From assembly GCF_900103535.1 (NCBI RefSeq), contig NZ_FNHQ01000025.1, forward strand, positions 1 to 38,101: 38,101 nucleotides of DNA, read 5' to 3'. The notes beneath the pieces were generated by a model. That model did no database searches, had not been told where the DNA came from, and saw nothing but the letters and a program-made list of their open reading frames with translations. Shown one piece after another: positions 2,661-37,656 of this stretch. The DNA is from Megasphaera paucivorans. Lineage in GTDB: Bacteria; Bacillota; Negativicutes; Veillonellales; Megasphaeraceae. How positions within the stretch are numbered: the first letter of the stretch is position 1; each line of letters opens with the position of its first letter. The position numbers and the translations under genes are program-made.

Positions 2661-3335
2661 ATGAAAAATCATAAAAAACTTTCCGAAAATGTAATTGAAA
2701 ATATTCTTGCCATGATTACCGTTGATAAACGTTTTGCCATAGGTGATCAATTGCCCAATGAGTTAGAGTTAGCTCGGGAATTAAATGTAAGCCGTACAAC
2801 ACTACGAGAAGCTATTCGAGTTCTTATTGCTTATGGCGTTCTCGAAGTGCGTCGCGGATGCGGAACCTTTGTCACTAGTGATGCTGCAGACTTAAGACGT
2901 AATCTAGAACCGCTCACAGGAATAAAAGGAAATAGTACGGATTTATTCGAAATGCGCCTTATTATTGAACCTGAAGCTGCATACTGGGCGGCATTACGCG
3001 GCACAGACGCCGAAATCAAACGGATTGAAGAATTACAAAATATTATTGAAGAAAACCAAAAAAAGCATCATATCCATTTCAAAGATGAATATTTATTCCA
3101 TCAAACAATTGCGCAAGCTTCCCATAATGAATATATGAAGGAAATTATTCCAATTCTTTATCAAGGAGTTTTAAAAGGATTCAACCTTTTATTTAAGGAT
3201 AGAAATGTTATTCCCAAAAATAATCAATACCATCGTTTAATCATTGAATTTTTAAAACTCCGTAATGCCGAAGGTGCTCGAAACGCAATGAAATTACACA
3301 TGCTTCATACAATTGAATGGTATAATCAAAAATAA
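2661..3335 (+). CDS. GntR-family transcriptional regulator, FadR subfamily
   Basis: This 224-residue DNA-binding regulator has a winged helix at residues about 5-75 (ELARELNVSRTTLREAIRVL, then GVLEVRRGCGTFV). An all-helical FCD ligand-binding domain occupies about 95-220. Candidate metal or acid ligands are in DEYLFHQTIAQASHN and in the late histidines of YHRLIIEFL and KLHMLHTIEW. FadR-type FCD regulators usually sense small organic acids. AAAGGA sits 8-9 bases before the ATG. The neighbouring convergent OFA transporter and nearby CoA transferase are possible targets, but no operator is recognisable, so this is inference. The gene shares a bidirectional terminator at 3472-3508 with the transporter gene. 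It is one of the few genes left of oriC that opposes replication-linked orientation. Confidence 0.88.
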   Translation: MKNHKKLSENVIENILAMITVDKRFAIGDQLPNELELARELNVSRTTLREAIRVLIAYGVLEVRRGCGTFVTSDAADLRRNLEPLTGIKGNSTDLFEMRLIIEPEAAYWAALRGTDAEIKRIEELQNIIEENQKKHHIHFKDEYLFHQTIAQASHNEYMKEIIPILYQGVLKGFNLLFKDRNVIPKNNQYHRLIIEFLKLRNAEGARNAMKLHMLHTIEWYNQK

Positions 3336-3533: not shown

Positions 3534-4820
3534 TCAATGATTAGTATATGACGGAACTTCATTTTGTTTTACTCGTTCTTCTGTTTCGGCAAGACCATGG
3601 CGAGTTTTCATCTTAAGAAAAATCATAATTAACAAGGCTACCACAAAACACCCCGAAAAAAACTGAAGTGTAACCGCATAACTATTAGTTGTTTCCTTAA
3701 TAAAGGATAAAAGCAGAGGACCAGCAACTCCCGCAGCTCCCCATGCAGTAAGAATACGTCCATGAATTGCACTTAGCTCTTTGGTTCCAAAAAGATCACT
3801 AAGATATGCCGGCATACAAGAAAATCCACCACCATAACAAGTAATAATAAGAAGTACTACTATTTGAAAACTAAACGAACTTGTAATAGATGCCAGTTTA
3901 AAAAACGCTAATATTTCAATAGCAAAAAATAATATATACGTATTAGAGCGGCCAATATAATCAGAAACTGTCGCCCACGCAATACGCCCAGCTCCATTCA
4001 TAAATCCAATAATGCCAACCATAGATGCGGCCATCATAGGGGACATATGAACAACTTCCTGTGCCATAGGAGAGGCCACTGCCAAAAGTGCAATCCCGCA
4101 AGTAATATTTGTAAAAAATAACCACCAAATCGTATATAGCTGCCATTTTTTCATAGCTTGCTTTACTGTAAACTGAGGCATTGCATCCGCATATTGAACT
4201 ATATTTTTTTCACTAGCTTCTTTGAGTAGTGTATCCGTTGTCGGAACTTCACCTAGCTTAGGTGGGGCCAAATACAAAGACGAAGCGGTCATAATACTCA
4301 TGTATACAATACCAAGAATAATAAAATTTGTAACAAGACCAAAATGTTGCACTAAAATTTGCATCGCCGGTCCAGCAATCATACTGGCAAACCCAAATCC
4401 CATAATTGCAAGTCCTGTAGCAAATCCTCGATTATCAGGAAACCATTTTACCAGTGTCGATACCGGTGTGATATATCCGGTTCCAAGACCAATCCCACCA
4501 ATAATGCCATAAGAAAGATACATAAGAAATAAATTGTGAAAATACAAAGCAGCTGCAGTGCCAAACATGCCGGTACAAAAGAAACCCATTGACATAAGTC
4601 CTGACTTTTTAGGGCCTATTTTTTGCACAAAGCTTCCTAAAAATCCTGCTGATAACCCTAAAAATAAAATAGCTAAAGAAAATGTCCACGTCGTTTCTTT
4701 TAATGTAAAACCCATTGTTTCCATAATAGGTTTAGTTAATACACTCCACGCATATACACTGCCAATGCAAATATGAATACCCATAGCAGATAACGCAATT
4801 AACCAGCGATTTTTTTTCAT
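3534..4820 (-). CDS. MFS transporter, oxalate/formate antiporter (OFA) family
   Basis: This 428-residue inner-membrane protein has about 12 hydrophobic segments and a central cytoplasmic loop near residues 190-225. The N-terminus with IHICIGSVYAWSVLTKPI and the segment GIIGGIGLGTGYITPVSTLVKWFPDNRG are characteristic of the OFA family (OxlT, YhjX). These proteins exchange or cotransport small mono- and dicarboxylates such as oxalate, formate, pyruvate or lactate. The start follows AGGGAGAG with good spacing. The gene is transcribed alone, from a consensus promoter at 4995-5022 through a ZTP-type riboswitch leader ending in a terminator. Regulation by ZTP points to a one-carbon substrate such as formate, but this is inference. 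An upstream-acting GntR regulator gene converges with it. Confidence 0.85.
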   Translation of the reverse strand: MKKNRWLIALSAMGIHICIGSVYAWSVLTKPIMETMGFTLKETTWTFSLAILFLGLSAGFLGSFVQKIGPKKSGLMSMGFFCTGMFGTAAALYFHNLFLMYLSYGIIGGIGLGTGYITPVSTLVKWFPDNRGFATGLAIMGFGFASMIAGPAMQILVQHFGLVTNFIILGIVYMSIMTASSLYLAPPKLGEVPTTDTLLKEASEKNIVQYADAMPQFTVKQAMKKWQLYTIWWLFFTNITCGIALLAVASPMAQEVVHMSPMMAASMVGIIGFMNGAGRIAWATVSDYIGRSNTYILFFAIEILAFFKLASITSSFSFQIVVLLIITCYGGGFSCMPAYLSDLFGTKELSAIHGRILTAWGAAGVAGPLLLSFIKETTNSYAVTLQFFSGCFVVALLIMIFLKMKTRHGLAETEERVKQNEVPSYTNH

Positions 4821-4861
4821 ATGTATATCTCTCCCTATAACTATAAAGGCGAGCCGACACG

Positions 4862-4917
4862 AAAAAAAACCGGCCGACTGGCCAAAGCATATTTATACTT
4901 TGCCCAGACGGTCGGCG
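4862..4917 (-). terminator. Riboswitch expression-platform terminator
   Basis: Read leftward, a long hairpin pairs GCCGA with TCGGC, CTGG with CCAG and CAAAG with CTTTG, and ends in eight U. Its left arm contains the conserved 3' strand of the aptamer. Folding of the aptamer and of the terminator are therefore mutually exclusive, predicting an ON switch. Confidence 0.8.
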
Positions 4918-4974
4918 CTTCTACACAATACAGTCCACGTGGTTTTTCCACTTAATTCCGTCAGTTCTGTACTG
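4902..4974 (-). ncRNA. ZTP (pfl) riboswitch aptamer in the leader of the OFA transporter
   Basis: The RNA read leftward shows P1 (CAGUACAG at 4974-4967 with CUGUAUUG at 4933-4926), a P2 hairpin GUGG-AAAAA-CCAC followed by GUGGA, and the 3' conserved block GCCGACCGUCUGGGC. These match the pfl/ZTP riboswitch architecture, which senses the purine intermediates ZTP/ZMP when 10-formyl-tetrahydrofolate is short. The pseudoknot GACGG (4962-4958) with CCGUC (4911-4907) is preserved by a paired change relative to the usual GGCGG/CCGCC. That compensatory change supports a real fold. The match is from memory of the consensus, not from a covariance search. Confidence 0.8.
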
Positions 4975-4994
4975 ATATATTCTAATGTAGTTAG

Positions 4995-5022
4995 ATTATA
5001 TCACAATGTAAATTTATGTCAA
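4995..5022 (-). promoter_or_regulatory. Consensus promoter driving the ZTP riboswitch and transporter
   Basis: Read leftward: TTGACA (5022-5017), 16-bp spacer, TATAAT (5000-4995). Both hexamers are perfect. The predicted transcript starts about 14 nt before P1 of the riboswitch. Confidence 0.85.
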
Positions 5023-27651: not shown

Positions 27652-27757
27652 AAAAAAAAAACACGTTTTAATCAGTGTAGTGACCCCCATAAGATAGATT
27701 TCTAGGTCTAACTTATGGGGGTCACTACACTGATTAAGTTTAAAACGTGTTTTTTTT
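27652..27757. terminator. Composite terminator between permease gene and icd, holding a palindromic element
   Basis: The outer stem ACACGTTTT/AAAACGTGT and AATCAG/CTGATT is flanked by A-run and T-run. Its interior is the 54-bp palindromic element at 27676-27729. The icd stop codon lies in the T-run. Confidence 0.85.
27676..27729 (-). mobile_element. 54-bp palindromic mini-element (IS3-type ends), copy 1
   Basis: Arms TGTAGTGACCCCCATAAG and its exact complement (18 bp each) enclose an 18-bp centre. Read on the minus strand, the centre matches that of copy 2 at 32888 in 14 of 18 positions. TG...CA ends and the sequence of the arms resemble the terminal repeats of IS3/IS150-group insertion sequences. 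No coding capacity remains. No direct target duplication is visible (CAG/CTG flanks). Confidence 0.8.
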
Positions 27758-28754
27758 ATTTTAAATGGGAAATAACAGCATCTCTATATTGTTCAGTTGA
27801 AGCATTTCCTCCTAAGTCAGGTGTTATGTATCTTTTTTCGGAAAGCACTTCGTCTACAGCCCTGCGAATACGGGAAGCAATATTATTTTTACCAATATAT
27901 TCTAAAAGCATACAAGAAGACCAGAGAAGTGCTGTAGGATTAGCAATATGTTTTCCTGCAATGTCAGGAGCGCTGCCATGAACAGCTTCAAACATGGCAT
28001 ACCCAGTTCCCAGATTACTGGATGGGAGTAATCCAAGACCACCAATAAGGCCACTTGTAAGGTCGGAAACAATATCACCGTATAAATTAGGCATTACCAT
28101 GACATCAAAGGAGTCGGGATGCATTACTAATTGCATACAGACGTTATCAACAATTTTATCATCACTTTCAATTTGAGGATATAAAGCGGCAATTTTTTTA
28201 AATATAGATAAAAACATGCCATCGCTTAATTTAAGAATATTTGCCTTATGTACACAAGTTACTTTATGACGGTCATGGGATAAGGCATATTCAAAAGCAT
28301 CACGAATAATACGTTCACTTGCCTTACGGGTAATAATTTTAATGGCATGAACGGTATTTTCATCAATTTGTTTTTCTATTCCGACGTAAAGGTCTTCTGT
28401 ATTTTCTCGAAAAGTGACAATATCTACATTAGGAAAAGGGGTAGATACAGCGGCATTTGCTTTAGCCGGACGGATATTTGCATAGAGATCATACTTATTG
28501 CGCAGCGTAACATTAAGAGAACGAAATCCTTTACCAATAGGAGTAGTAATAGGTGATTTTAAAAGAACTTTATTTTTTTCAAATGAAGTAAATGCCTCTT
28601 CTGGGATAAGAGCGCCATTTTTTTCATATTCTGCGGCTCCAACATTAAATATTTCATATGTCATATCTGAATGAGCAGCATCTAATATTGTTAGGACAGC
28701 ATCCGTGATTTCAGGACCGATGCCATCTCCTTTAAATACAGTAATTGTTGTCAT
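27756..28754 (-). CDS. icd: Isocitrate/isopropylmalate-family dehydrogenase, probably NAD-dependent isocitrate dehydrogenase
   Basis: This 332-residue enzyme would oxidise isocitrate to 2-oxoglutarate. It shows TVFKGDGIGPEITDAVL, FRENTEDLYVGIE, TCVHKANILKLSDGMF, the metal/substrate segment NLYGDIVSDLTSGLIGGLGL, and FEAVHGSAPDIAGKHIANP. The short length and FRENTEDLYVG place it with the NAD-type isocitrate dehydrogenases rather than the 415-residue NADP type. Its start lies 2 bp after the citrate synthase stop, so the two are cotranscribed and form a pathway unit with the divergent aconitase. Isopropylmalate or homoisocitrate dehydrogenase is less likely given this context. The stop codon sits inside the T-run of the downstream terminator. 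Confidence 0.9.
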   Translation of the reverse strand: MTTITVFKGDGIGPEITDAVLTILDAAHSDMTYEIFNVGAAEYEKNGALIPEEAFTSFEKNKVLLKSPITTPIGKGFRSLNVTLRNKYDLYANIRPAKANAAVSTPFPNVDIVTFRENTEDLYVGIEKQIDENTVHAIKIITRKASERIIRDAFEYALSHDRHKVTCVHKANILKLSDGMFLSIFKKIAALYPQIESDDKIVDNVCMQLVMHPDSFDVMVMPNLYGDIVSDLTSGLIGGLGLLPSSNLGTGYAMFEAVHGSAPDIAGKHIANPTALLWSSCMLLEYIGKNNIASRIRRAVDEVLSEKRYITPDLGGNASTEQYRDAVISHLK

Positions 28755-28756
28755 AG

Positions 28757-30097
28757 TTATCGTTCCTCCATAGGGATATAATCCATTAAATCTCCAACAT
28801 ATTTTGTAGCAGGGCGTACGATACGATCATCATAGAGTTTATTTTCAATATTATGAGCCAGCCAGCCTACGAGACGACTGATAACAAAAAGTGGTGTAAA
28901 TAAATCACGGGGAATACCCAGCATAGCATATGCGAGACCACTATAATAATCTACATTACTGCACATATTAGCACCTTTTTCCTGTGAAAGAATTTGAACG
29001 GCTATTTTTTCGAAATGCCGATAGAAGTTAAAAATATCTTCCATTTTCTTTTCTTTAGCTACAGTTCCGCAAAAGTGACGAAGAATTTCTGCACGTGGAT
29101 CGGATAAAGTATATACGGCATGGCCGAATCCATAGACAAGGCCGCTATGATTTTGAAAATCTTTATTCAAAATGCGATGAATAACATCGGTAATCTGAGA
29201 ATCCGTAGCTTTTGTTCCTATCGTATCAATGACTCGCTCCATCATTTCAGATACTTTAACATTAGCGCCGCCATGACGCGGCCCTTTTAAAGCGCCTATA
29301 GAACTAGCCATAGTAGAATATAAGTCGGTATCAGTAGAGGCTACAACAACATTGGTAAACGTTGAATTTGTACCACCGCCGTGATCCGCATGAAGAAATA
29401 ACATTACATCTAAAAGACGTGCTTCTTTCGCTGTGAATTTACTATCCGGGCGAAGCATATAAAGAATATTTTCTGCTGTAGAATAATCTTTACGCGGATA
29501 ATGAATAATCAGACTTTGTCGATTATAATAATGAATTTTCGACATATAAGCATAACAAGCAATAGACGGAAGTTTGCTCATGATATTAAGACCCTTGCGA
29601 AGGGTTTGATAAACATCTGTATTATCGGGATCCGGATCATAATTATATAATGTCAACAGTGCATGCTGCAGTTTGTTCATAAGATTTTTTCCGGGATTAT
29701 GAAGTAAATTAGCTTCTAAAAAATCATCAGGAAGATCATATCCTTCTTGTAAAACAGTACAAAAGTGTTTCAATTCATTTTTTGTTGGCAAATAACCGAA
29801 AAGAAGCAAAAAAGATGCTTCTTCATATAAATATCCGTGATCGCGGTCATTTTTAACCAATTCACGGATATCAATGCCACGGTAATATAGTATACCGTCT
29901 ATATCGATCTTTTGCCCATCTTCTGCACGTTGATATCCGACAACATCGGCAACACGCGTCAGGCCGACTAATACACCGGTATGATCTTCGTTGCGCAGTC
30001 CCCGTTTTACGCCATATTTTTTATACCATTGTGAAGGAATGTTGGTATAATTTTGAGATTTGCCGTAAAACTGCGCTAAATAGATGTTTTTATCCAT
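28757..30097 (-). CDS. Citrate synthase (long bacterial type)
   Basis: This 446-residue enzyme condenses oxaloacetate and acetyl-CoA. Catalytic histidine regions are LHADHGGGTNSTFTNVVV and GPRHGGANVKVSEM, and GFGHAVYTLSDPRAEIL holds the third. The A after GFGH, where arginine is common in the gltA type, is also seen in the longer anaerobe-type enzymes. The frame extends to 30175, but ATG at 30097 after GAGGGG fits the conserved MDKNIYLAQFYGKSQ start. A promoter TTTACA-16-TATAAT lies at 30224-30251. icd follows after 2 bp. Direction is opposite to the aconitase gene 478 bp away. Confidence 0.93.
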   Translation of the reverse strand: MDKNIYLAQFYGKSQNYTNIPSQWYKKYGVKRGLRNEDHTGVLVGLTRVADVVGYQRAEDGQKIDIDGILYYRGIDIRELVKNDRDHGYLYEEASFLLLFGYLPTKNELKHFCTVLQEGYDLPDDFLEANLLHNPGKNLMNKLQHALLTLYNYDPDPDNTDVYQTLRKGLNIMSKLPSIACYAYMSKIHYYNRQSLIIHYPRKDYSTAENILYMLRPDSKFTAKEARLLDVMLFLHADHGGGTNSTFTNVVVASTDTDLYSTMASSIGALKGPRHGGANVKVSEMMERVIDTIGTKATDSQITDVIHRILNKDFQNHSGLVYGFGHAVYTLSDPRAEILRHFCGTVAKEKKMEDIFNFYRHFEKIAVQILSQEKGANMCSNVDYYSGLAYAMLGIPRDLFTPLFVISRLVGWLAHNIENKLYDDRIVRPATKYVGDLMDYIPMEER

Positions 30098-30223
30098 TGT
30101 ACAGATGCCCCTCTCTTGTGATGTAATAAAAAAATGTAATGTTTTTAATATTCGTGAAAATTCATAAATACTCAATTTAAAAATGTCTTTTCAGAGAAGA
30201 TTAAAAAGTGATGAATATAAGAT

Positions 30224-30251
30224 ATTATAGCATAATTTAGGTAAATGTAAA
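30224..30251 (-). promoter_or_regulatory. Promoter of citrate synthase-icd
   Basis: Read leftward: TTTACA (30251-30246), 16-bp spacer ending TGC, TATAAT (30229-30224). It is an extended -10 promoter. Confidence 0.7.
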
Positions 30252-30385
30252 GAAAAACGAAAAAATAAATTCAGAAAATAGGTATGTAAACAGCTAAGTA
30301 TAATTATGTTGTAATATGAACTTTATTACAATAAATTTCATATTATGAAAATGAATTACTGAAATTCGTAATTAGAAATAGATAA

Positions 30386-30400
30386 TGCTGTTTAACAGCA
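30386..30400. promoter_or_regulatory. Candidate operator palindrome
   Basis: TGCTGTT-T-AACAGCA is a perfect dyad in the citrate synthase/aconitase gap. It is more GC-rich than its surroundings and symmetric like a repressor site. No regulator is assigned. Confidence 0.4.
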
Positions 30401-30575
30401 GAAAAATAGAGTATAAAGGACTGTTTTTCTTGCATAACTAAGATGGATTTGATAGACTTTATGGTAAGATATAAATTTATATTAAAGCGATTGATTACTA
30501 TTTTATAGAGGATATATCAGCTTTTCAGTCTTATGTATATAGCGTAATAATTGAATTTTAGTAGGGGGAATATAC

Positions 30576-32858
30576 ATGGTAAATTTGTATGAAGGCGGCG
30601 CATATCTGCTTAACGGTATTAAAATGATATCAGAAAGGGATAAAACTAAGATACAGTCTCTTACAGGAAAAACGGTATCTAAGGAAAAAGCAAAAAAAGG
30701 TACAATCACATATTCTTTATTACAAGCGCATAATATATCAGATACTATAGATAAGTTGAAAATAAAATTTGATGCAATGGCTTCTCATGACATAACTTTT
30801 GTGGGTATTATACAAACGGCAAGAGCTTCAGGTATGGAAAAATTCCCATTGCCGTATATATTGACGAATTGCCATAATTCGTTGTGTGCTGTTGGCGGAA
30901 CTATTAATGAAGATGATCATGTATTTGGCTTATCTGCTGCTAAAAAATATGGCGGTATTTATGTTCCGCCTCACATGGCTGTTATTCATCAATATATGCG
31001 TGAAACGATGGCTGGCTGTGGAAAAATGATTCTTGGTTCTGATAGTCATACACGGTATGGAGCACTCGGTACGATGGCTATGGGGGAAGGCGGCGGTGAG
31101 TTAGTAAAACAGCTTCTTGGTGATACTTATGATATTACCTACCCGGAAGTTGTTGCTGTTTATCTTACAGGGAAACCTAATCCTGGCGTGGGTCCTCAGG
31201 ATATAGCGATTGCTATTATTGGAGCTGTATTTAAAAACGGATATGTAAAAAATAAAATCATGGAATTTGTAGGTCCTGGAATAGCGTCAATGACGACCGA
31301 TTATCGTAATGGTGTTGATGTTATGACAACAGAAACGACATGTCTTTCTTCTATTTGGTGTACGGATAATGATACAAAACAATTTCTTGCAAAGCATGGA
31401 CGTGTGTCTGATTATCAAGAATTAACACCATCTGAAATCGCATATTACGATGGGGTTATAGAAATAGATCTTTCTACGATTAAACCAATGATCGCTATGC
31501 CGATGCACCCAAGTAATGCTTTTGAAATAGATGAACTTAATGCGAATCTTGAAGATATCATGTATGAAACAGAAAAAAGTATTAAATCTCGTTTTTCTAA
31601 TTCAGATATTCATTTCAGTTTAATGGATAAGATTATTAAAGGTAAACTTCATGTACAACAGGGAATTATTGCTGGTTGTGCCGGCGGTTGTTATACAAAT
31701 ATCATGGAAGCGGCTCATATTCTTGAAAATGCAAATTGTGGAAATGACGTATTTACACTAGATGTATATCCATCGTCACAGCCTCTTTTTATGGATTTGG
31801 TAAAAAAAGGAGCTATTTCTAAACTGATGGCTTCGGGTGCTATTGTTAAAACGGCATTTTGCGGTCCTTGTTTTGGAGCAGGAGATACTCCTGCAAATAA
31901 TGCATTTAGTATACGCCATACAACCCGAAACTTCCCAAATCGAGAAGGGTCTAAACCTGGGTCAGGTCAATTTTCTGCAGTTGCTCTTATGGATGCGCGT
32001 TCGATTGCAGCTACGGCAGCTAATGGAGGAATTCTTACCGCAGCGACTGCATATGCAGACGAGTATAGTGTACCGGAATATGATTTTGATGATAGTTCCT
32101 ACAAGATTCGTGTATATCAAGGATTTGACAACGCAAAACCACATAGTGAATTAATTTACGGCCCTAATATTAAAGATTGGCCTGAACAGATTGCCTTGTC
32201 TGATAACATACTTCTCAAGGTTTGCTCAAAAATTATGGATTCTGTTACAACGACAGATGAATTAATTCCTTCTGGAGAAACATCATCGTATCGTTCTAAT
32301 CCATTAGGCTTGGCAGAATTCACATTATCTCGCCGTGATCCGGATTATGTAAGTAAAGCAAAAAAAATTGGTCTTGTGGAAAAAGAACGAAGAGATGGAA
32401 AAAATATTTTTGCTGCTGATGTTGAGTTAAAAAGAATATATACTAAACTTGAAGAAAAGTTTGGTACTATAGATATTGCTTCAATAGAAATAGGAAGCGT
32501 AATTTATTGTGTAAAACCAGGAGATGGCTCTGCTCGGGAACAAGCGGCCAGTTGTCAACGCGTATTAGGAGGACTCGCTAATATTTGTGAGGAATATGCT
32601 ACCAAACGATATCGTTCTAATGTTATTAACTGGGGAATGCTTCCGTTTCAGATGAAAGAAAGTCCTTCTTTTGAAGTAGGAGACTATATTTATATTCCGC
32701 ATATCCGAAAAGCTTTAAATGGTGATATGAAAAGTATTAAAGCGTATAGTATAGGAGATACAATCAAGGAAATATCATTATATATTACAGAAATGACAGC
32801 AGAGGAAAAGAAAATTGTGAAAGCAGGTTGTTTAATTAATTATAATCGGAATAGATAA
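30576..32858 (+). CDS. Aconitase-family hydratase
   Basis: This 760-residue iron-sulfur enzyme probably converts citrate to isocitrate. Visible family features are [44 protein letters not shown] (first cluster cysteine) and the pair in [13 protein letters not shown]. The C-terminal swivelling domain has [16 protein letters not shown]. It belongs to the YbhJ-like hydratase branch rather than to canonical AcnA (about 890) or AcnB. Its position opposite citrate synthase and icd argues that it supplies the aconitase step of the oxidative branch to 2-oxoglutarate. The start follows GTAGGGGG. It ends at a terminator interrupted by a palindromic element. Confidence 0.87.
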
Positions 32859-33105: not shown

Positions 33106-34019
33106 ATGAACAGAAAAACAATATATATTGGCAGTATTATGGTGATAATACTGATACTATTAGGAGGTTGGGGATATTATACAAAACATAATACTATCAT
33201 TGATTTTAATAAAACAGAAGCTATTCCAGAGTATCAAGTAAAAAATAAAGAAGTACCTTTACGAATTGCGATGGTTTCTGTTTTAAGTCATGCTGATACA
33301 GCTAAATATCAAAATCAGTTAGCAGATAGTATTGGCAGAATGCTTAATCGTCCGGTATTGGTACTGCGCCGCAAAAGTTATGCTGAAATTAATCAATTAT
33401 TAAATAAAGGGGATGCAGATATTGGTTTATTATCAACGGGAGCCTATTGTGTATATGGCAAGAAAGAAGAATTGACACTGTTAGCGATGCAGCAACGAAA
33501 TAATTTACCATATTACTATAGTTATATTATTGTTCCAGCGGATAGTACTGACTATACTTTTGAAGATCTGCGGGGAAAAAAATTTGCTTATGTCGATCCG
33601 TTGAGTTATTCAGGATTTTTTTCAGTGCAGGCCCGATTGCAAAAAATAGGTATAACACAGGATGCATTTTTCAATTCTTATTCCTTTACCTATAGTCATG
33701 ATGCATCTATTCGTGCCGTAGCTAAAAAATTTGTTGCAGGGGCAGCTATTGATAGCCTTGCTTATGATTATTTGTTGAAATATCGTCCTCAAATTGCCAG
33801 TAAGATACGTATTATTGAAATTCTTCCACCTAGGGGAACGGGGCCTATTGTTGCTCGTAAAGGTTTGATTGATGAAAAAAAATACAGCAGGTTTTGCTGC
33901 ATATACATGAGGATAAAACTGCAAAAGATGCATTGGATCATCTTTTGATCGATAAGTTTATTTTACCAGAACCATCTCTTTATCCTACCATAGATTGGTA
34001 TGAAAAGGAGGTGGGATAA
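33106..34019 (+). pseudogene. PhnD-like periplasmic binding protein, interrupted by a -1 frameshift at A8
   Basis: The uninterrupted frame runs 33106-33948 (280 residues). It begins with a signal anchor (residues 5-22) and the PhnD-type domain (VPLRIAMVSVLSHADTAKYQ, LNKGDADIGLLSTGAYC, YTFEDLRGKKFAYVDPLSYSG). After residue 259, at the A8 tract 33875-33882, family similarity stops and a foreign tail follows. In the -1 frame the sequence continues as IQQVLLHIHEDKTAKDALDH and ends EKEVG at 34019, directly before the kinase ATG, giving 304 residues of normal architecture. A_AAA_AAA in the zero frame is a possible slippage site with a small hairpin (CAGCA/TGCTG) after it. It could be programmed slippage, a recent mutation or a sequencing error. 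It probably senses a ligand for the adjacent kinase. Confidence 0.8.
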
Positions 34020-35420
34020 ATGGGATGGTTTGCCAGATTAAATATTGCTAGTAAATTAAGTGTGATGGTAGCAAGTGTTATTTTTGTTTTTAGTCTTTTA
34101 TCGGGATTTATTTTATGGAGTTCTTTGTCAGAAGTTATGCGTCAAGATTTAGAAGCTCGCGGAAAATCTATCGCTATGGAAATATCTCAGTTTAGCAGTG
34201 AACCTATACAAATGGGTAACTTATATGCTTTGGAAGAATTAATTTTTATGGCAAAAAATAATAATGAATTTGTGGAATATATATTTATTGTAGATCCTAA
34301 TCAGAAAATTATGGCACATACTTTTCGTAATGGTATTCCTGAAAAACTTTTTCCGATACATACGTATATTCAAAAAAACGGCACAGAAAATGATATTTTA
34401 GAGTTTGAAAGTAATATGGGACAAATTGATGACATTATTTGTCCTATTGAAGAGGGTTCGTTAGGATATGTAAGATTGGGTGTTAATGAAAAAGCATTGA
34501 TTATGATGTTGGCTAAGAATTTTTTTAAACTTGTATGTATTACGTTAGCCGTGGGATTATTGGGTGCTTGGTTTGTTTATAAGCTGGCTCATATTTTTAC
34601 CCGTCCATTGGAAAAATTGATTCATCGGGCAGAAACTATTTCTGCAGGTGGATTTCCGAGTCATCCGTTAACGGTGCGTTCAGGAGATGAATTCGGACGA
34701 TTGACGACAGCCATGAATAATATGGCAGGGTCATTGCAAGCGGGGGAGATAGAACGTAAAAAATTATTAGGACATTTATTAAATGTTCAGGAAAATGAAC
34801 GGAAACGAATTTCTATGGAAATTCACGATGAAAGCGGACAAGCTTTAACTGCGCTGATTTTATCTATTCGGGCTTTGGCAAATCAAGTAGAAGATCAAGA
34901 GCAGAGGGAATATATATTGGCTGTCCGAGATGAAACCTATCATATTTTACAAAAACTTCGGCATTTAGCCGTTGAACTTCGACCGCCGGCATTGGATGAA
35001 TTAGGCATTGAAGCCGCTGTTCAAAATTTAATTTCCGGGTATCAAAAATTTAATAATTTAACAGTAACTTTTATTTGTCATTTGCAACAGCAGCCGGATG
35101 ATATGACCAGTTTGGCCTTGTATAGGATTATTCAGGAATGCTTGACAAATATTATCAAACATTCTCATGCTACAAAAGCATCGGTTTATCTGGAAGGAAC
35201 ACAATGGGTACAGTTAATTGTTAAGGATAATGGGATTGGTGTTACAGAAGAAATTATTAAAAAAGCACGACAGACAAACCATTTAGGAATTTATGGAATG
35301 CAGGAACGTATACAGATATTAGGAGGAATGATGCAAATTACATCAGAAAAACCCGAATGGATGACAGTATATCGTATTCAATTAAAAGCTGTGACGAAAG
35401 GCAGGGATATGGATGTTTAA
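34020..35420 (+). CDS. Sensor histidine kinase, NarX/UhpB type (HisKA_3)
   Basis: This 466-residue inner-membrane kinase has TM1 at about 14-34 and an extracytoplasmic domain at 35-168 (VEYIFIVDPNQKIMAHTF). TM2 is at about 169-190, followed by a HAMP linker to about 243. The HisKA_3 phosphoacceptor is H269 in ERKRISMEIHDESGQALTAL. The HATPase domain has the N box (IIQECLTNIIKHSHATKASV), G1 DNGIG and GIYGMQERIQILGG. It phosphorylates the regulator encoded next, with which it overlaps by 8 bp. The ATG directly follows the shifted-frame stop of the binding-protein gene, so the binding protein probably presents the signal. AAAGGAGGTG is the ribosome site. Confidence 0.92.
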   Translation: MGWFARLNIASKLSVMVASVIFVFSLLSGFILWSSLSEVMRQDLEARGKSIAMEISQFSSEPIQMGNLYALEELIFMAKNNNEFVEYIFIVDPNQKIMAHTFRNGIPEKLFPIHTYIQKNGTENDILEFESNMGQIDDIICPIEEGSLGYVRLGVNEKALIMMLAKNFFKLVCITLAVGLLGAWFVYKLAHIFTRPLEKLIHRAETISAGGFPSHPLTVRSGDEFGRLTTAMNNMAGSLQAGEIERKKLLGHLLNVQENERKRISMEIHDESGQALTALILSIRALANQVEDQEQREYILAVRDETYHILQKLRHLAVELRPPALDELGIEAAVQNLISGYQKFNNLTVTFICHLQQQPDDMTSLALYRIIQECLTNIIKHSHATKASVYLEGTQWVQLIVKDNGIGVTEEIIKKARQTNHLGIYGMQERIQILGGMMQITSEKPEWMTVYRIQLKAVTKGRDMDV

Positions 35421-36063
35421 CGTAATGATAGTAGATGATCATTCATTAATACGTAAAGGAATTCGATTATTATTAAAAAATAATACCGATTTTAATGTAA
35501 TAATGGAAGCAGCTACAGGAGAAGAAGCTTTGCAGAAACTACACATAAATAAAGTAGAGATTATGTTATTGGATCTTTCTATGCCTGGCGTCGGAGGATT
35601 AGCAATTATTGAACAGGCAAAACGAATGTGTGCCGACTTGCGGATTCTTATATTAAGTATGCATGAAGATGAAAATTATATTCGGCAGGCGATGTTGCTG
35701 GGAGCTAGTGGGTATATCCCAAAAGCTTCGGCGGATGATGAATTGTTGGATGCGTTGCGTACGGTAGCTTCCGGTCGTTTTTATCTTAGTAAAAATGCTG
35801 AACAATCTCTGCTTACGTCCATGTTTTCTGGACTTGATGGAGATGGACGAGATCCGGTAAAATGCTTGAGTCATCGTGAACTGGAAGTATTTGAATATAT
35901 GGTGCATGGCTATACTATCACCGAGATTGGAAAGTTGTTGAATCTTAGTGTAAAAACTATTGATACACATAAGACAAAAATTATGGAAAAATTAGGCTGC
36001 AAAAAACGAAATGAATTGGTAAAATTGGCCTTGCAGTACAATCTTTTAAAAACAGAATTATAA
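35413..36063 (+). CDS. Response regulator, NarL/FixJ (LuxR-type) family
   Basis: This 216-residue DNA-binding regulator has a receiver domain (1-120) with the acidic pair D8-D9, phospho-acceptor D54 in MLLDLSMPG, S82 and K104 in GYIPKAS. The C-terminal LuxR-type helix-turn-helix (about 148-210) reads LSHRELEVFEYMVHGYTITE and LNLSVKTIDTHKTKIMEKLG. It is the cognate partner of the overlapping kinase. The likely target is the transporter gene that starts 192 bp downstream, as UhpA activates uhpT; this is inference. All phosphorylation residues are intact. Confidence 0.94.
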   Translation: MFNVMIVDDHSLIRKGIRLLLKNNTDFNVIMEAATGEEALQKLHINKVEIMLLDLSMPGVGGLAIIEQAKRMCADLRILILSMHEDENYIRQAMLLGASGYIPKASADDELLDALRTVASGRFYLSKNAEQSLLTSMFSGLDGDGRDPVKCLSHRELEVFEYMVHGYTITEIGKLLNLSVKTIDTHKTKIMEKLGCKKRNELVKLALQYNLLKTEL

Positions 36064-36140
36064 AATATATATTATTATGAATATAGATAACTTTAAGAAA
36101 AATTCTGATGTATACAGTAAAAAATCTTATGCAAATTGAG

Positions 36141-36178
36141 AATTACGCTGATAGTGTAATTTTAACAATTTTTTTATA
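36141..36178 (+). terminator. Hairpin with T-run between response regulator and transporter genes (terminator or operator)
   Basis: AATTACGC (36141-36148) pairs with GTGTAATT (36154-36161) with one G-T pair, followed by T-rich sequence. It could be a weak terminator, or a regulator-binding dyad upstream of the transporter. Confidence 0.4.
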
Positions 36179-36255
36179 ATAAAAAAGATAGAAAAAGCGC
36201 GCTTATAAGGAAGTAAATTTTACTGTATATATTATAGTTACTATGAGGTGAGTCT

Positions 36256-37656
36256 ATGTTCAACTTTTTACAACCAAAAAAATCTGCGGTACGAGTACCC
36301 GCAGATAAAGTAATGGACGTGTATAAAAAATACAGGCTATTAACTTTGATAGGTATTATTATTGGATATGCCAGTTTTTATGTAGTGCGAAATAATTTTG
36401 CATTGTCTACTCCTTTTTTAAAAGCTGATTTAAATCTTTCCGCTACAAGCATTGGATTGCTGAGTAGTTATATGCTGATTTCATATGGTCTTAGCAAAGG
36501 ATATATGAGCAGTTTGGCTGATAAGGCAGATCCTAAGAAATTCATGGCTCTCGGCTTAATTTTATGTGCATTAGTTAACGTGTTGATGGGATTTAGTATT
36601 AATTTTACGACGTTTACTATATTAGTTGTTATATTAGGGACTTTTCAAGGTATGGGAGTAGGACCTTGTTTTATATCTATGGCTAAATGGTATCCTAAAA
36701 AAGAACGAGGAATTGTAGGTGCTTTTTGGAATATATCTCATAATATTGGCGGTGGTATTGTAGCACCTGTTGTTACAGCTGGTTTTTTTATAGTTGGTGA
36801 AGATAATTGGCAGGCAGCGAGTTATATTGTTCCAGCTTGTGTAGCTTTAATCGGGGTTGTCGTTGTTTTATACTGTGTAAAAGGATCTCCTGTAAATGAA
36901 GGACTTCCTGATTTGCAGCATATTATGCCAGAAGATGACAATATCGACATGATGGAAAAAAATCAAGATGAAGTTCCAGAAAATATGAGTGCCTGGAAGT
37001 TATTTAAAACCTATGTTCTTCCAAATAAAAATGCTTGGTTTGTATCTTTTGTTGATACTTTTGTATATACTGTTCGTTTTGGTATGTTAACATGGCTTCC
37101 CATTTATTTATTACAAGTTAAGGGGTTTACTAAAGCAGAAATGGCCGTTGCTTTTTTGTTCTTTGAATGGGCGGCTATTCCGTCAACGATTTTTGCAGGA
37201 GTTATTTCTGATAAATTCTTTAAAGGATACCGGATGCCGCCGGCTATTATTAGTATGATACTTATCTTTTTCTGTATTATTGGTTATTGGAAAAGTGAAT
37301 CTTTGGCGACAACAACAATTTTTGCAGCAATTGTGGGTTGTTTGATTTATATTCCTCAATTTTTAGCTTCCGTGCAGACTATGGAAATAGTCCCATCATA
37401 TGCGGTAGGTTCAGCTGTTGGATTACGTGGTTTTATGAGCTATGTTGTAGGGGCATCTATTGGAACTAGTCTTTTTGGGGTGGCTGTGGATCATATTGGC
37501 TGGGATGGTGGTTTCTATATTCTTTTTGCAGCAGTTATTCTTTGCATATTGTTTTGTTTGCTAACGCACCATGGTGCAAAACAATTACATAAAGAAAGTT
37601 TAGAACGCCGTAAAGAAAAAGATACAGTACCTGTCTCTCCCTCATTATCTCATTAA
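36256..37656 (+). CDS. Organophosphate:phosphate antiporter (OPA) family MFS transporter
   Basis: This 466-residue inner-membrane protein has about 12 hydrophobic segments. The N-terminal KKYRLLTLIGIIIGYASFYVVRNNFALSTPFL, and YMLISYGLSKGYMSSLADKADPKKFMALGL, are hallmarks of the OPA family (GlpT, UhpT, PgtP, UhpC). These proteins exchange phosphate for glycerol-3-phosphate, hexose-6-phosphate or phosphoglycerates. The conserved arginine of the first helix (VVRNN) and FWNISHNIGGGI are present. It lies after the binding protein-kinase-regulator series and is probably its output. It could be a transporter or a UhpC-like receptor, but being downstream of the regulator favours transport. The GAGGTGAG ribosome site is good. 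Confidence 0.9.
   Translation: MFNFLQPKKSAVRVPADKVMDVYKKYRLLTLIGIIIGYASFYVVRNNFALSTPFLKADLNLSATSIGLLSSYMLISYGLSKGYMSSLADKADPKKFMALGLILCALVNVLMGFSINFTTFTILVVILGTFQGMGVGPCFISMAKWYPKKERGIVGAFWNISHNIGGGIVAPVVTAGFFIVGEDNWQAASYIVPACVALIGVVVVLYCVKGSPVNEGLPDLQHIMPEDDNIDMMEKNQDEVPENMSAWKLFKTYVLPNKNAWFVSFVDTFVYTVRFGMLTWLPIYLLQVKGFTKAEMAVAFLFFEWAAIPSTIFAGVISDKFFKGYRMPPAIISMILIFFCIIGYWKSESLATTTIFAAIVGCLIYIPQFLASVQTMEIVPSYAVGSAVGLRGFMSYVVGASIGTSLFGVAVDHIGWDGGFYILFAAVILCILFCLLTHHGAKQLHKESLERRKEKDTVPVSPSLSH

Follow-up and report, generated by a model that had tools for sequence, protein, structure and literature searches.

Why should an RNA that responds to a shortage of a folate cofactor stand in front of a gene for a membrane transporter, and what would such a transporter carry? 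This question is raised by a locus of Megasphaera paucivorans within an analyzed stretch of DNA of 38,101 nt (contig NZ_FNHQ01000025.1, in the following "the window"), in which a ZMP/ZTP (pfl) riboswitch precedes the gene for an MFS transporter of 428 aa (positions 3534–4820, minus strand). In the ZTP class, ZMP/ZTP accumulates when 10-formyl-THF is short and binds to the aptamer, and ZTP serves as ligand and as alarmone. The main text of Weinberg 2010 lists purH, fhs, pfl, glyA, folD, and further enzymes as targets (PMC2864571). In searches of open papers other than the class-defining one of 2015 (Kim et al.), a pairing of a ZTP riboswitch with this transporter was not found.

Architecture of the leader

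The original prediction of a ZTP aptamer came with the proposal to search with the Rfam ZTP covariance model, and this search bore it out. RF01750 was matched by positions 4895–4978 (minus strand, as are all leader features) over the full model length (1–86) and with 59.0 bits (E 3e-7), compared with a gathering score of 39 bits. It was the sole Rfam match at the gathering threshold within the window. Covariation was quantified with 70 distinct homologous leaders, the alignment of which was fitted to a model that contained P1 and P3 and lacked the pseudoknot. Compensatory changes were present at 8 of the 8 base pairs of P1, and the covariation score was 0.340 versus 0.134 upon shuffling. The two pseudoknot strands, GACGG (4958–4962) and CCGUC (4907–4911), were paired in 100% of the leaders (70/70). 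One of the five pseudoknot pairs, the second, had changes on both sides; it alternates between A-U (63 leaders) and G-C (7 leaders) and is never broken. Because this pair covaries, the argument that GACGG/CCGUC represents a paired substitution was confirmed. Covariation thus backs both P1 and the pseudoknot.

The aptamer begins 16 nt downstream of a sigma-70-type promoter with an extended −10 region (4995–5022), for which a consensus scan revealed the −35 element TTGACA (5022–5017), a spacer of 16 nt, an extended TG, and the −10 element TATAAT (5000–4995). As predicted, it is a consensus promoter with 12 of 12 matching positions, and no other site in the region matches perfectly, while promoter-like sites overall were not enriched there (4 found versus 2.5 expected). 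At the other end of the leader, an intrinsic terminator hairpin (4870–4915), followed by a tract of eight U residues (4862–4869), extends over the 3′ half of the aptamer, that is, the second pseudoknot strand and P3. Folding and scanning showed that the terminator stem takes up CCGUCUGGGC of the aptamer. The scan yielded two terminator-like sites versus 0.2 expected, and the folding energy of the leader was −53.8 kcal/mol (z −4.07). As the terminator is made from the aptamer's own 3′ strand, the aptamer fold and the terminator are mutually exclusive, and the expression platform is therefore also in agreement with membership in RF01750. The overlapping terminator and the ON-switch architecture that had been proposed were thus both recovered, and overlapping terminators were present in most of the homologous leaders examined. 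A ribosome-binding site, GGGAGAG (4829–4835), is located 8 nt upstream of the start codon of the transporter gene.

Taken together, the target is uncommon, whereas the window RNA itself is a typical ZTP riboswitch. It has the sequence, the elements P1/P2/P3, the pseudoknot, and the overlapping terminator in common with the class, as well as the ON design that is known for it (PMC2864571; PMC7337938). The difference is that its target is a membrane transporter, in contrast to the enzymes described in PMC2864571.

Distribution of the aptamer and of ZTP switches

The conservation of the pairing was analyzed with 80 NF049980 loci from across the Negativicutes, in addition to those analyzed in the genome's own family, and the covariance model used for scanning was built from 28 aptamers. 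The orthologues of the window protein form a clade of 72 genes with at least 54% identity to it (clade A; SH-aLRT 100). The aptamer was found upstream of 68 of these 72 orthologues versus 0 of 19 more distant paralogues, and thus, the survey of related transporter genes suggested along with the original prediction turned out in its favor. The aptamer-bearing genes form one clade (SH-aLRT 100) with 2 label changes on the tree. Within the genome's own family, the aptamer directly precedes the transporter gene in all 11 genomes that have the transporter. A set of 80 named relatives contained 66 Negativicutes loci for which upstream sequence was available, and every one of them had the aptamer, in one case (L193) in a truncated form with a weak match of 30 bits; this set of 66 overlaps with the class-wide set of 72, and the two are not additive. 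The aptamer-linked genera are Megasphaera, Dialister, Allisonella, Veillonella, Selenomonas, Mitsuokella, Anaerovibrio, Pectinatus, Megamonas, Phascolarctobacterium, and others. The leader is conserved and covarying, and it is therefore under selection. The gene neighbors around the Negativicutes transporter loci were otherwise not conserved.

Four clade A orthologues (L100, L114, L117, and L118) had no aptamer at Rfam E-values of up to 1. In three of these four cases, the PFL gene of the genome has a ZTP switch (G144, G171, and G206), which is at most suggestive of a meaningful link between the two. In four genomes from three families (L089, L095, L096, and L097), tandem ZTP aptamers with a distance of 34–47 nt precede the transporter gene. 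Five tandem ZTP arrangements have been counted in total (PMC9481103).

The M. paucivorans genome contains three ZTP switches, which precede the genes for pyruvate formate-lyase (PflB), an AICAR transformylase of 391 aa, and the MFS transporter, and its use of RF01750 in front of the two enzyme genes is shared with the known class. As PflB and the AICAR transformylase would answer to the same signal as the transporter, the three switches most likely represent one small regulon for making formate, importing formate, and using formyl units. Formate-THF ligase (fhs) is encoded in 292 of 300 genomes of the class, including this one. The genome also has two genes of the FocA/NirC family (PF01226), located on contigs without any of the three ZTP switches. 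These formate channels have the same predicted substrate as the transporter and belong to an unrelated fold family.

The transporter and the gene context of its relatives

The gene had been assigned to the OFA family of the MFS, and one part of this assignment stood while the OFA label is only loosely right. The protein is an MFS carboxylate transporter, scoring above the cut-off of PF07690 and passing NF049980 ("L-lactate MFS transporter", an SfMCT-type equivalog) with 373.4 bits versus a cut-off of 320. However, both oxalate/formate models, TIGR00890 (174 versus 375) and TIGR04259 (137 versus 335), rejected it, and according to NCBIfam, it is of the SfMCT type. YhjX from E. coli, which is 25% identical to the window transporter, also passes the NF049980 cut-off, and therefore, the name of this model does not settle the substrate. 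The label covers YhjX and the formate-linked clade alike and looks too broad.

The nearest solved relative is SfMCT (6G9X), which carries L-lactate, and for which the ligand-site residues have been described; according to the authors, chains of at least three carbons are required for significant competition (PMC6573034). Five residues of this site are retained across the clade (Y119, N276, R280, Y331, and F335), comprising the TM4 Tyr, the TM8 Asn and Arg, and the TM10 Tyr and Phe, and the Arg, the Asn, and both Tyr are invariant. In contrast, four residues are replaced in all or nearly all members (L28V, L145F, H250V, and F359L), so that the full set of ligand-site and proton-site residues of the equivalog is not present, and the formate-linked gene context described below is a further difference from SfMCT. 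YhjX shares the Val at the H250 position with the clade, whereas Y329 and F333 of the clade are F and I in YhjX. YhjX has been implicated in pyruvate uptake as one of three E. coli uptake systems (PMC7730263), and in contrast to the ZTP control of the clade, it is induced by pyruvate-sensing two-component systems. In S. aureus, the MFS protein B7H15_13955 carries pyruvate (PMC12632267).

OxlT (8HPJ) is likewise an OFA-type MFS protein with a TM8 Arg, which is present in the window protein as R279. However, the clade lacks Q34 and K355 of OxlT, the latter position being a Trp in 72 of 72 members. R272 and K355 of OxlT are the two basic residues that bind the dicarboxylate, and the clade does not have this pair. 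As read from the sequence, the pocket would fit a monocarboxylate, possibly one other than lactate, and it speaks against oxalate.

Relatives of the transporter were also present in 83 of 399 Bacilli genomes, and it is these relatives, which do not have the switch, that weighed most in favor of formate. The 64 fetched loci with at least 49% identity were regarded as orthologues and 16 loci of lower identity as paralogues. In five Bacillaceae strains (Neobacillus, Mesobacillus, and Bacillus), purT and the transporter gene form an operon with gaps of about 13–55 nt, and at one locus (L176), the called start of the transporter gene overlaps purT. The PurT profile score was 610 bits versus a cut-off of 502. 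PurT is the formate-dependent GAR transformylase, and formate is the common substrate of PurT, Fhs, and formate dehydrogenase (FDH). The genes for FdhD and/or the FDH alpha subunit were located at a distance of 3 kb or less from 54 of the 64 orthologues versus 3 of the 16 paralogues, with a Fisher p of 1.3e-6 that is inflated by kinship and overstates independence because many of the Bacilli loci are close relatives. The usual gene order is fdhD, transporter, MpsC-domain gene, FDH. This linkage shows an association and does not give the direction of transport. The aptamer was found at 0 of the 80 Bacilli loci. The MpsC-domain gene (PF10057) lies between the transporter and FDH genes at L196 (5251–5679) and at most FDH-linked Bacilli loci (L209–L272); the Pfam name of PF10057 refers to a Na+-translocating membrane-potential system and may hint at energetic coupling to the oxidation of formate.

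In the tree, the PurT-linked group is the sister of the ZTP-linked Negativicutes group (SH-aLRT 97), and both are nested inside an FDH-linked grade, with identical invariant pocket residues. The order fhs, ZTP switch, transporter was found in Mitsuokella (L155), and at another Negativicutes locus (L067), the order is folD, ZTP switch, fhs, one opposing gene, ZTP switch, transporter. In summary, the relatives exhibit a conserved linkage to genes for formate-consuming enzymes (purT, fdhD/FDH alpha, and fhs), as would be expected for the proposed class of formate importers. Formate import for formyl-THF synthesis, which had originally been conjectured from the mode of control, is a prediction from sequence that gains strong support from this independent context.

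Formate and the alternative substrates

These results make it quite likely that the transcriptional ON ZTP riboswitch of the window controls a formate importer feeding 10-formyl-THF synthesis, and it is the ligand response, the substrate, and the direction of transport that we infer. A shortage of 10-formyl-THF would lead to a buildup of ZMP/ZTP and its binding to the window aptamer, the ligand-bound aptamer would block formation of the terminator, and the MFS gene would be transcribed. The transporter would then bring formate into the cell, formate-THF ligase would convert it to 10-formyl-THF, and this would be used by AICAR transformylase for purine synthesis. The same ZTP signal would also control the formation of formate inside the cell by PflB and the use of formyl units by AICAR transformylase. 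With somewhat greater reserve, we propose that the MFS clade across Negativicutes and Bacilli is a family of formate importers to which ZTP control was added in the Negativicutes for formate scavenging under one-carbon starvation. The clade is currently annotated as L-lactate or oxalate/formate transporters and is probably misnamed. Several points stand against formate, among them that SfMCT carries L-lactate, that YhjX, although only 25% identical, is linked to pyruvate, and that the genome already has two FocA/NirC genes.

The rival that was initially preferred is a pyruvate importer, as YhjX, in which case PFL would split the pyruvate to formate for 10-formyl-THF. It would agree with the passing of the NF049980 cut-off by YhjX as one of the three E. 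coli pyruvate uptake systems (PMC7730263), with the ZTP switch in front of pflB in the same genome, and with the Val that replaces H250 of SfMCT in YhjX and the clade alike. However, the identity to YhjX is only 25%, and the neighboring PurT and FDH consume formate, not pyruvate. In addition, PFL over the cut-off was absent from 66 of the 110 transporter-bearing genomes that were near-complete, among them most of the Megasphaera-like and all of the Dialister-like genomes examined, and ZTP control was retained in the PFL-less genomes whose loci were read. As most transporter-bearing genomes are without PFL, import of pyruvate to feed PFL does not hold up as an explanation in general; once the PFL survey and the purT/FDH context were available, it was given up, and we now regard it as unlikely. 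The idea that PFL and the transporter replace each other was also rejected: the raw odds ratio was 0.54 (p 0.027), and nothing was left of it at the genus level within families. Because the trend vanishes upon stratification by family, only the plain majority without PFL was used.

A proton symporter for L-lactate or another monocarboxylate of three or more carbons, induced by ZTP to supply carbon via serine/GlyA or energy, is a still weaker candidate. The NF049980 score of 373 bits over the cut-off of 320 and the conservation of the SfMCT residues Arg and Asn in TM8 and Tyr in TM4 would be in line with it, but the model accepts YhjX as well and does not resolve the substrate, and formate genes recur next to the orthologues. 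Moreover, L28V, L145F, H250V, and F359L occur throughout the clade, and an H250F exchange inactivates SfMCT (PMC6573034). Very improbable is an OxlT-like oxalate:formate exchange with decarboxylation of oxalate to formate inside the cell, which was favored by the family name given in the original prediction and by a distant similarity to OxlT (E 1.4e-17, phmmer versus PDB). The Trp at the K355 position, the rejection by TIGR00890 and TIGR04259, and the lack of any oxalyl-CoA decarboxylase over the cut-off in the 58 genomes of the order that were checked all argue against it. The direction of a secondary transporter cannot be read from its sequence, so that formate or another acid might instead be exported under folate stress. 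Nevertheless, a switch that turns the gene on when formyl-THF is short fits import, as do neighbors that consume formate (PurT, Fhs, and FDH), and export is very improbable.

The formate importer reading provides a specific and testable substrate for a widespread transporter clade and, if true, carries the ZTP regulon beyond enzymes into the uptake of nutrients. When formyl-folate runs short, cells would then scavenge the formate of their neighbors, which would be relevant for cross-feeding by relatives of Megasphaera, Veillonella, Dialister, and Phascolarctobacterium, many of which are without pyruvate formate-lyase.

Several other genes in the window deserve mention. A GntR/FCD regulator of the PdhR/LldR type (2661–3335, plus strand) is convergent with the transporter gene and cannot share its promoter. 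A PgtABCP-like system (33106–37656, plus strand) comprises a phosphonate-type binding protein, a histidine kinase, a response regulator, and the phosphoglycerate transporter PgtP (847 bits); the binding protein has 280 aa, and its C-terminal end seems to be frameshifted. Genes for an isocitrate-type dehydrogenase, citrate synthase, and aconitase, named by eye from the sequence, lie together at 27756–32858 and represent the oxidative half of the TCA cycle in a fermenting anaerobe.
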